Shown in pieces: positions 1 to 31,815 of a DNA stretch of 33,139 nucleotides (positions within the stretch are counted from its first letter, which is position 1; each line of letters opens with the position of its first letter). Under the pieces are notes generated by a model. The model was not told the origin of the DNA. It ran no database searches and saw nothing but the letters and a program-made list of their open reading frames with translations. The translations under genes were made by a program, and so were the position numbers. The DNA comes from Parvularculales bacterium (GTDB lineage: Bacteria > Pseudomonadota > Alphaproteobacteria > JAPOUT01 > JBAJNM01). The stretch covers positions 1-33,139 of the forward strand of contig JBAJNM010000020.1 in the NCBI GenBank assembly GCA_036881865.1. The letters are read 5' to 3'.

Positions 1-459
1 AACCCGGCTGCCCGCCGCCTCCAATTGTTGAAATGCACGTATCATGCCGATTACCGTGCCGAGCAGACCCAACAAAGGTGCTACGTTGCCGATTACCTCA
101 AGCCAGCGGAAATAGCCCTGCAAGGCATCCAGTTCATTTTGTCCGGTGCGGCTCATTTCCTCCATGACATCTTCATCCTGTCCGCCGGCGTGTCTGGCCC
201 GCAAGCCCGAGGCCAAAACCTGCGCAACGGGTGCCGGATGGCTGCCAAAAAAGCGCATGCCATGCTCATTGCCGTTCTTCTCTACAAGAGAGAGCCCCTG
301 ATGTATGATAGGATTACCGCCCAAAGGCGAGCGCCAAAACTGATAGAGTTTCAAGACGATAATGGCCAGCGATAACACCGACAGGCACAGCAGGATGGCG
401 ACAATGGGACCTCCTTTTTCAAGAAGAGCCACACCTTCAAAAACCGATTGAAAAAACAT
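1..459 (-). CDS. MotA/TolQ/ExbB proton channel family protein (3' end outside window)
   Basis: This is the first 153 codons of an inner-membrane proton-channel protein of the TolQ/ExbB kind. These proteins use the proton motive force, together with a TolR/ExbD partner, for outer-membrane integrity or TonB-dependent uptake. The start is ATG at 459-457, preceded on the minus strand by AGGTGA about eight bases upstream. Residues about 16-40 form the first membrane helix (GGPIVAILLCLSVLSLAIIV). The stretch near residues 130-147 (VAPLLGLLGTVIGMIRAF) is the conserved TolQ/ExbB/MotA core, where the second helix begins. The reading frame stays open to the window edge, so the third helix and the TolR/ExbD partner, if present, lie outside. 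TolQ and ExbB cannot be told apart from this part, so no symbol is given. The start region is copied twice more just upstream. Confidence 0.93.
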   Translation of the reverse strand, partial: MFFQSVFEGVALLEKGGPIVAILLCLSVLSLAIIVLKLYQFWRSPLGGNPIIHQGLSLVEKNGNEHGMRFFGSHPAPVAQVLASGLRARHAGGQDEDVMEEMSRTGQNELDALQGYFRWLEVIGNVAPLLGLLGTVIGMIRAFQQLEAAGSRV

Positions 460-845
460 GAGCGAATTTCACCTAAACACGACAGATATTTTATTATCCG
501 CTACAGGATACGGTACTTTAAACCCTGCCGCAAACGGTGCTTATTTTCCAGAAGAACCACACTCTCTCTCCGGAACTGATTGAAAAAAACATGAGCGAAT
601 TTCACCTAAACACGACAGATACTTTATTATCCGCTACAGGATACGGCACTTTATATGGCGCTGCACACCCTGCCGCAACTGGCGCTTATTTTCCAGAAGA
701 ACCACACCCTCTCTCCAGAACTGATTGAAAAAAACATGAGCGAATTTCACCTAAACACTACAGATACTTTATTATTCGCTACAGGATACGGCACTTTATA
801 TGGCGCTGCATATGGCGCTACACACCCTGCCGCAAACGGCACTTA
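414..845. repeat. Three tandem imperfect copies of the tolQ/exbB start region
   Basis: The spacer between the proton-channel gene and threonine ammonia-lyase consists of three consecutive related units at about 414-540, 541-685 and 686-845. Each carries GAATTTCACCTAAACAC and CGCTACAGGATACGG in the same order. Copy 1 includes the real start codon and first codons of the minus-strand gene. Copies 2 and 3 repeat the AGGTGA ribosome site and ATG (592-590 and 737-735), but have seven A:T pairs where copy 1 has six, so their minus-strand frames shift and stop after 24 and 28 codons. Unit 3 also has an internal 12-base duplication (TATGGCGCTGCA, then TATGGCGCTACA). Open plus-strand frames of 36-45 codons beginning MSEFHLNTTD also run through the units, without a convincing ribosome site. 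Serial slippage or unequal exchange is the simplest origin. Confidence 0.9.
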
Positions 846-870
846 ATCAGCGCTCAGGGGAGGTTTCACC

Positions 871-2094
871 ATGCCCGTTACTCCGGATGATATAAAACAG
901 GCCGCCCGCCTCATAGAGGGGTCCGTTATCCGCACGCCTCTTGTTTATGGCGATGCCCTCTCGCGCCGTCTTGGCACCGGGATCTGGGTCAAGCATGAAA
1001 ACATGCAGCTGACCCATTCCTTCAAGGCGCGTGGCGCGCTGGTTAAGTTGCTCTCTTTATCTGAAGAGGAACGCAAGCGCGGGGTTATTGCCATGTCGGC
1101 GGGCAATCATGCGCAGGCGGTGGCCCTTCATGCCCAACGGCTGAACATCCCTGCCCTTATCGTCATGCCGGAGACGACGCCTATCGTGAAAATTAAAGAG
1201 ACGGAGGCTTTTGGCGCGCAGATTGTTCTGGACGGCGAAACCCTCGCCGAGTCCCAGGTCAGGGCGGAGAAGATTGCCGGTGAACAGGGTCTGACACTGG
1301 TGCCGCCTTATGATGATGACGCCATTATCGCCGGACAAGGCACTCTCGCGCTGGAAATGCTGGAGGATAACCCCGACCTTGATATTATCGTCGTGCCTAT
1401 CGGCGGGGGCGGCCTGATTTCCGGCGTGAGTATTGCGGCCAAAGCAATCAAGCCGGACATTACGATCATTGGTGTGGAGGCGGCGCTTTATCCGTCCATG
1501 TCCGGCGCTCTTAAGGGAGAAGCCGCCGTTTGCGGCGGACAAACCCTCGCGGAAGGCATCGCCGTTAAAAATGTCACGCCGCGCACCGTCGAGGCCGTCC
1601 GCGCTCATGTGGCGGAGATTGTGGTGGTCGATGAAGAAACGCTGGAGCGCGCCATTTATCTGTTTCTCAATGAGCACAAGACACTGGCGGAAGGTGCCGG
1701 TGCGGCGGGGCTGGCCGCCATGCTCAGCAGGCCGGATTTATTTGACGGCAAGAAAACGGGGCTCGTGTTGTGTGGCGGCAATATGGACACGCGTATTCTG
1801 GCGTCGGTTATCTTCCGGAGTCTGGGACGGGAGAAGCAGATTATATCGCTCCGCATCGAGATTTCAGACCGTCCGGGCGAACTGGGACGTGTTGCCGGAC
1901 TTATCGGCAATGGGCGGGGTAACATCGTGGAAGTCTCGCACCGCCGTCTGTTTCTTGATATTCCGGCGCGGCAATCAATGCTGGATATGATGATAGAAAC
2001 GCGCGGTGTGGAACATGCTCAGGAGATTATCTCCATTCTGGAGAAGGATGGACTGACCGTTCGTGTTCTGGAATCCTACGGGGCAAGCTCCTGA
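871..2094 (+). CDS. ilvA: Threonine ammonia-lyase (threonine dehydratase), single ACT domain
   Basis: PLP-dependent deamination of L-threonine to 2-oxobutanoate, the first step of isoleucine synthesis, or catabolic if it is the TdcB type. The 407-residue protein shows the fold-type II PLP lysine in the motif HSFKARGA (about residues 50-57), the substrate loop SAGNHAQ (about 75-81), and the glycine-rich phosphate-binding GGGGL near 178. The C-terminal 80 residues read as one ACT domain (LRIEISDRPGELGRV). One ACT domain and about 400 residues match the shorter ilvA/tdcB family rather than the 500-residue E. coli IlvA with two. The start is ATG with AGGGGAGG about nine bases upstream. Its end overlaps the convergent flavin reductase gene by 19 bases. 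The upstream spacer is the threefold repeat, so any promoter must lie within or beside it. Confidence 0.95.
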   Translation: MPVTPDDIKQAARLIEGSVIRTPLVYGDALSRRLGTGIWVKHENMQLTHSFKARGALVKLLSLSEEERKRGVIAMSAGNHAQAVALHAQRLNIPALIVMPETTPIVKIKETEAFGAQIVLDGETLAESQVRAEKIAGEQGLTLVPPYDDDAIIAGQGTLALEMLEDNPDLDIIVVPIGGGGLISGVSIAAKAIKPDITIIGVEAALYPSMSGALKGEAAVCGGQTLAEGIAVKNVTPRTVEAVRAHVAEIVVVDEETLERAIYLFLNEHKTLAEGAGAAGLAAMLSRPDLFDGKKTGLVLCGGNMDTRILASVIFRSLGREKQIISLRIEISDRPGELGRVAGLIGNGRGNIVEVSHRRLFLDIPARQSMLDMMIETRGVEHAQEIISILEKDGLTVRVLESYGASS

Positions 2095-30861: not shown

Positions 30862-31815
30862 TCAGTATTGAGGTTCGTCAAGCTGCCGAGTCTCATCAAG
30901 CGGCCGAATCTCGTTCAGTCGCCGGACCTCATTCAGCCGGCGATAGGCTTCAGTATTCTCAAGGGCCTTATTACCCAGAATATAACCAAAAGGGGTGTTC
31001 CCCCAGATGTCCTGCGCCATGTCATTAGCCCCATAGTCCAATAACAGCTCCACCACTGCCGATGTTTTGCTATTGGCCGCTGCCATATGCAGGGGTGTTT
31101 TATTGTACTGATCAAGGGCCTCTATGTCGGCTCCATAATTCAACAACAGTTCCACCACTGCCGGTATCTCACTATTGGCCACTGCCGCATGCAGGGGTGT
31201 TTTCTTATATCGGTCGCGTACCTCTATGTCCGCCCCATTGTCCAGTAACAGTTGCACCACCGCCGGTGTTTTGCTATTGATCGCTGCCGCATGCAGAGGT
31301 GTTTTCTTATATTGATCAAGAGCCTCTATGTCGGCTCCGCGAGCCAGTAACAGTTGCGCCACTGCCGGTGTTTCGCTATACGCCGCCGCTAAATGCAGAG
31401 GCTTTCTCCCATTCTTGTTGCGGGCTTCTATATCAGCGCCGCGATCCAGTAGAAGTTTCACCACCGCCGGTGTCCGGTTAAACGCCGCTGCAACATGCAA
31501 GGCCGTTACTCCATACTTAGTGCGGGCCTCTATATCGGCTCCGCGGGCCAGTAATGCTTGCATCCCACCCGGTGTTGAGATGTTACCCGCCGCATAATGC
31601 AGAGGACCTCCCTCATCCCTATCAAAGGCTCTAACATCAGCGCCCTGAAGAAGAGCAACCCTAACATCCACCAGCGTTGCCGTCTGCCAAAACCTTTTAT
31701 CCAGCAACACATTACCTTGCGTCTCCGGCAATGCACTCTCCTGTGCCTGAAGGGGAGATAGCAAGACAGTCAATAAAAGAAGCTCTCCTAAAAAGATGCT
31801 CGCTTTTGTTTTCAT
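30862..31815 (-). CDS. Exported ankyrin-repeat protein with C-terminal hexapeptide repeat
   Basis: A 317-residue protein with a signal peptide (residues 1-24, cleavage near LQAQ), so probably periplasmic or secreted. Six successive ankyrin units have their PLH/ALH motif at residues 71, 105, 139, 173, 207 and 241, and a degenerate one (PFG) at 275: exactly 34 residues apart, one more than the usual 33. A partial unit precedes at about 46-66. Residues 292-315 are four copies of a hexapeptide R-x-L-(N/D)-E-x (RRLNEV, RRLNEI, RPLDET, RQLDEP). Ankyrin arrays bind proteins; the partner is unknown. The start has CGGAGAA nine bases upstream. Repeats 170-250 are nearly identical, a sign of recent expansion. 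Confidence 0.88.
   Translation of the reverse strand: MKTKASIFLGELLLLTVLLSPLQAQESALPETQGNVLLDKRFWQTATLVDVRVALLQGADVRAFDRDEGGPLHYAAGNISTPGGMQALLARGADIEARTKYGVTALHVAAAFNRTPAVVKLLLDRGADIEARNKNGRKPLHLAAAYSETPAVAQLLLARGADIEALDQYKKTPLHAAAINSKTPAVVQLLLDNGADIEVRDRYKKTPLHAAVANSEIPAVVELLLNYGADIEALDQYNKTPLHMAAANSKTSAVVELLLDYGANDMAQDIWGNTPFGYILGNKALENTEAYRRLNEVRRLNEIRPLDETRQLDEPQY
30871..30942. repeat. 18-base repeat coding for the hexapeptide tail
   Basis: Four imperfect 18-base units on the minus strand encode R-x-L-(N/D)-E-x four times, directly before the last two residues and the stop codon of the ankyrin gene. Confidence 0.75.
30988..31605. repeat. 102-base tandem repeats coding for ankyrin units
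   Basis: Six units of about 102 bases repeat the same series of words on the plus strand, for example CCTCTATGTC(G/C)GC(T/C)CC, GCATGCAGGGGTGTTTT and CACCGCCGGTGT. The inner units differ at few positions, whereas the outer ones have diverged more. They correspond exactly to the 34-residue ankyrin units. Confidence 0.85.

Follow-up and report, generated by a model that had tools for sequence, protein, structure and literature searches.

What does it mean for a bacterial gene when its translation start is present three times in a row? In the window, by which we mean the whole analysed stretch of 33,139 nucleotides, the minus-strand start of an exbB-type proton channel gene is found in three tandem units. 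A first-pass annotation of this DNA had proposed that the two additional starts act as upstream decoys and that a plus-strand reading frame is kept open through all three units. Our analysis assigns a probability of roughly three in four to a plainer account, a lineage-specific tandem triplication of the divergent promoter and start region of exbB and ilvA that is near-neutral or mildly alters promoter dosage. The array lies between two divergent genes:

1-459, minus strand: 5' part of an exbB-type proton channel gene (MotA/TolQ/ExbB; Pfam MotA_ExbB); the contig ends inside the gene
416-543, minus strand: unit A (proximal), by alignment the sole copy whose ATG (459) runs on into exbB
457-475, minus strand: Shine-Dalgarno sequence AGGTGA and exbB ATG of copy A; the same 19-mer lies at 590-608 and 735-753 (exact matches)
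544-688, minus strand: unit B, 145 bp, with an ATG at 592 that opens an out-of-frame 24-codon ORF, 592-518 (MFFSISSGERVWFFWKISTVCGRV)
689-846, minus strand: unit C, with one extra 12-bp sub-repeat and an ATG at 737 that opens an out-of-frame 28-codon ORF, 737-651 (MFFSISSGERVWFFWKISASCGRVCSAI)
798-823: 12-bp sub-repeat (plus strand ATATGGCGCTGC/ATATGGCGCTAC), by alignment present twice in C, once in B and absent from A
871-2094, plus strand: ilvA-type threonine ammonia-lyase, the divergent neighbour (NCBIfam NF005600, 561 bits, cut-off 496)

Window positions 416-846 consist of three head-to-tail units of 128, 145 and ~157 bp that are 89-95% identical, in good agreement with the ~127, 145 and 160 bases noted earlier. 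Pairwise alignment gave gapped identities of 114/128 (89%) for A and B, 115/128 (90%) for A and C, and 138/145 (95%) for B and C, and TRF returned B plus C, with a period of 145 and a score of 529, as the top-scoring array of the window. The ribosome site and ATG that had been read in each unit are part of an identical 19-mer, TAGGTGAAATTCGCTCATG, which matches the assembly as a whole at exactly three sites, each on the minus strand. Allowing up to three mismatches revealed no further site in the whole assembly (a reversed control pattern gave 0), and when B plus C was searched as DNA against the whole assembly, no locus besides the window array was found. The units are head-to-tail copies confined to one locus, as in intergenic arrays of the VNTR type. 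Only the window-left copy, A, stays in the frame of the gene; the other two stop after 24 and 28 codons, respectively. The minus-strand poly-T run that follows the ATG has six T in A and seven in B and C, which bears out the extra A:T pair reported for the latter two, and B and C differ from A by a further 4 bp downstream of this run.

What the first-pass annotation missed is that the array occupies the intergenic space between two divergent genes. Its left end enters the first ~15 codons of exbB and its right end stops ~25 bp short of ilvA, and thus the repeat unit is essentially the whole exbB/ilvA divergent spacer plus ~15 exbB codons. The array probably originated by a short-homology duplication, with unequal recombination or slippage expanding it afterwards; the fact that B and C are the copies most alike fits such a later expansion.

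The truncated gene was labelled tolQ/exbB in the earlier reading. Its product carries the MotA/TolQ/ExbB channel domain (Pfam PF01618, E 2.7e-16), and to this extent the label stands. The partial protein (153 aa) does not reach the curated equivalog cut-offs, scoring 43.7 bits for tolQ (cut-off 221) and 21.6 bits for exbB (cut-off 206.2), and we therefore refer to it as ExbB-like. Window positions 1-99 overlap L033:5022-5120 on contig C83 over 99 bp of contig end at 96% identity, from which we infer a join between the window's contig, C20, and C83. The latter encodes the same last 33 residues, runs to the 3' end of the gene and continues into an ExbD (Pfam 5.8e-23) followed by another, ExbD-like ORF and then by a TonB-like ORF rich in proline and glutamate, which was assigned from its position and proline-rich composition, without a Pfam match. 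Because C83, which seems to carry the 3' end of the gene, runs into exbD/exbD/tonB-like genes, the gene is more likely the exbB of a TonB system than tolQ. Four of the 99 overlapping bases differ, all of them silently, which suggests a strain mixture in the sampled population at an assembly break point. Near the tonB-like gene of C83, minus-strand ORFs at L033:3-2758 resemble, by eye, a DNA-methyltransferase-containing restriction-modification or defence cluster. On the other side of the array, the ilvA-type gene also scores 405 bits with a second profile, TIGR01127 (cut-off 378.75).

An array of this kind could also be produced by an assembler that chained strain variants of a single-copy spacer. 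The assembly is fragmented (89 contigs), and the silent differences at the C83 overlap are what a strain mixture would leave. However, 7 to 14 substitutions separate the copies, in addition to indels of 4, 12 and 24 bp, and both internal junctions have the same GAAAA/TAAG join, as in a true tandem array. We consider an artefact decidedly unlikely.

Tandem arrays with units of at least 40 bp were surveyed in 1.217 Mb (52%) of the 2.33-Mb genome. Fifteen distinct arrays were found there. In 14 of them the repeat sits inside an open frame and the period is a multiple of three; the exbB/ilvA array is the only one for which neither holds. As the sole non-coding array in the surveyed half, it does not belong to a general habit of the genome. 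The weakest array that was counted as coding, at L139:11148-11307, is an 87-bp repeat of 1.8 copies in a frame of just 72 codons. At the far end of the window, positions 31031-31554 contain an in-frame tandem array inside an open frame of ~331 codons, and its 102-bp (34-codon) period suggests ankyrin-type repeats.

A comparison of the spacer with those of related genomes, as proposed in the first-pass annotation, found it single-copy in two relatives with the same gene order. These genomes, G128 (L065) and G385 (L145), belong to another family and share the divergent exbB/ilvA arrangement, the region being 77% identical between them. Neither the G128 spacer (202 bp) nor that of G385 has an internal repeat, and neither has detectable similarity to the window spacer. 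The closest ExbB homologues by sequence come from Tepidicaulis marinus and a Rhodobiaceae MAG (55-56%), in which the N-terminus of exbB is longer and the upstream region is not the same. Moreover, the 900 bp upstream of 46 exbB homologues contained no comparable tandem repeat. Given the single-copy spacers of the relatives and the 46 loci without a repeat, the triplication appears confined to the lineage of the window as far as can be seen. A member of the same order (L013) has a 66/132-bp tandem array of ~4.5 copies, 73-78% alike, ~600-900 bp upstream of an ExbB homologue. This repeat, at positions 3-303 of a 960-nt stretch, lies at least ~600 bp away from the exbB match; it is unrelated, and we rejected it as a counterpart. 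Beyond ilvA, the window carries a flavin-reductase-like gene; its counterpart in G314 (L063, 44% identity) adjoins exbB, a placement that fits an old gene neighbourhood.

The following candidate control signals were found in the units:

493-498, minus strand: putative -10-like hexamer GATAAT of copy A, with a weak -35 (consensus scan)
626-631 and 771-776, minus strand: putative equivalents in B (GATAAT) and C (AATAAT), from sequence comparison
468-497, plus strand: promoter-like TTCACC-18-TATTAT directed toward ilvA, repeated at 601-630 and 746-775 (consensus scan, 9/12 matches each)
495-510: dyad TATCC-N6-GGATA over the -10 region, intact in A and B (628-643) and with one arm changed in C

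The -10-like hexamer is located ~33 nt upstream of the ATG in all three copies, and the leader is also kept. As the -35 elements are weak, the promoter assignment is a consensus match only. On the plus strand, 4 promoter-like sites were found in the region compared to 1.0 ± 1.2 in shuffles; three of these represent the same repeated site and the excess is thus not independent evidence. The dyad has 4 matches in 1.2 Mb, two of which are the array itself, while other spacings give up to 4. Since this count is no higher than that of some other spacings, the dyad was rejected as a regulon operator.

In the triplication that we favour, the repeated unit would comprise the promoters, the exbB leader, the ribosome site, the ATG and ~15 codons. 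Expression of exbB would be driven mainly from the proximal copy A, giving a message with a leader of ~27 nt and no decoys, while ilvA would be expressed mainly from copy C, and the spare copies would be weak extra promoters or neutral spacer. The array may also alter the dosage of exbB or ilvA expression.

A stronger version of this idea is that the extra copies raise or stabilise the expression of exbB and/or ilvA and have been retained by selection for that reason. The promoter-like core is kept in each copy of what is the only non-coding array in the genome sample, and the differences between A and B hint at constraint on this core, as they affect 2/60 positions in the leader and core promoter and 12/68 in the rest (Fisher p=0.011). 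The same contrast is not significant for A/C (p=0.25) or B/C (p=0.70), however, and both the -10 hexamer and the dyad are changed in C. As only one of the three pairs shows this pattern, we rejected constraint on the promoter core and regard selection for the extra promoters as unproven; relaxed constraint on the formerly coding part of the spare copies could also explain the A/B differences. A selected amplification is thus possible but doubtful.

The proposal that the extra starts are decoys supposes that exbB messages begin in B, C or beyond and that ribosomes caught at the frame-shifted starts tune or reduce exbB translation. The starts themselves are real: the ribosome site and ATG are identical in all copies, and B and C share their frame-shifting changes and encode similar peptides. 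Their proposed role, however, is unsupported. Every copy including A keeps its own -10-like hexamer, and the main message can therefore start past the decoys; with a putative promoter in copy A, decoy-free messages are the simplest expectation. The decoy ORFs stop 58 nt before the next ATG, and since translational coupling is most efficient at tight spacing (PMC12548453), coupling over this gap is unlikely. In addition, duplicates of a gene start that are 95% identical, as B and C are, would simply be expected to encode similar peptides. RNA folding of both strands is within the shuffle range (z -1.22, and z -1.28 for the plus strand) and Rfam has no family match in the array region, and on these grounds an RNA element was rejected. 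Neither the 58-nt gap nor these folds correspond to a translation-coupled leader ORF or attenuator. A decoy function of the two extra starts is possible but unsupported, and as an account of the array it is unlikely. Under the triplication, messages initiated within B or C, or beyond them, would include one or two of the short out-of-frame ORFs, and the consequence for exbB would be small at most. We regard as very unlikely a combined scheme in which the number of promoter copies determines how the expression of exbB and ilvA is balanced and the extra starts are decoys on longer exbB messages.

The plus strand provides a further candidate, a Thr-rich leader peptide or small protein (MSEFHLNTTD...) upstream of ilvA that would be present in three copies and act, for example, as an attenuator. 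The plus-strand ORFs with this start are indeed open in all three units (45 codons in B), they sit upstream of a threonine ammonia-lyase gene, and the 12-bp indels preserve the frame. The openness that had been taken as a sign of retention is nevertheless at chance level, as 12% of dinucleotide shuffles hold a frame as long (P=0.12). A codon-position signal in this frame was likewise not found: the differences between copies are distributed 1/2/2 over the codon positions for B versus C and 1/2/3 for A versus B, without third-position bias. The three copies are also in three different frames, the first two each stopping within the next unit, and the peptide has no Pfam match, the plus-strand fold is unremarkable and the spacers of the two exbB/ilvA relatives lack similarity to the window. 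With chance-level openness and no codon-position bias, plus-strand coding was rejected, and we hold a leader peptide to be very unlikely.

Active extra copies would make the locus a natural case of amplified promoters between divergent genes, and the out-of-frame starts would be a by-product. Otherwise, any duplication that spans a gene start can be expected to yield repeated start regions and short peptides that resemble one another.

Our literature searches did not find a duplication of an exbB start region, and three known systems are instructive for comparison. The MIRU elements are dispersed, apparently mobile, short start-codon repeats in which a small ORF is coupled to the next gene at -4 nt (PMC12548453). 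The window array is similar in having a repeated intergenic unit with a small ORF ahead of a gene, but its unit is restricted to a single locus and 58 nt separate the end of each small ORF from the next start; the single locus led us to reject a MIRU-like element, a dispersed repeat or a mobile element. In bidirectional promoters, which are common, one -10 element can serve both directions (PMC12825309). The AT-rich TATTAT/ATAATA core of the window, with promoter-like matches on both strands, would be comparable, whereas here the region is present three times and the putative sites are consensus matches. The third case is that of VNTR-type promoter duplications, such as the 19-bp duplication of the thrT/tufB promoter region in evolved E. 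coli lines (PMC5371648). Like our array, these have a control region repeated in tandem next to a gene, at a single locus and with no counterpart in relatives, while the window unit has a greater length (128-157 bp), spans a divergent promoter region and takes in a start codon plus ~15 codons. The array has the look of an ordinary small duplication. Because promoter-region duplications are known and bidirectional promoters are common, it adds one more case to kinds already described.
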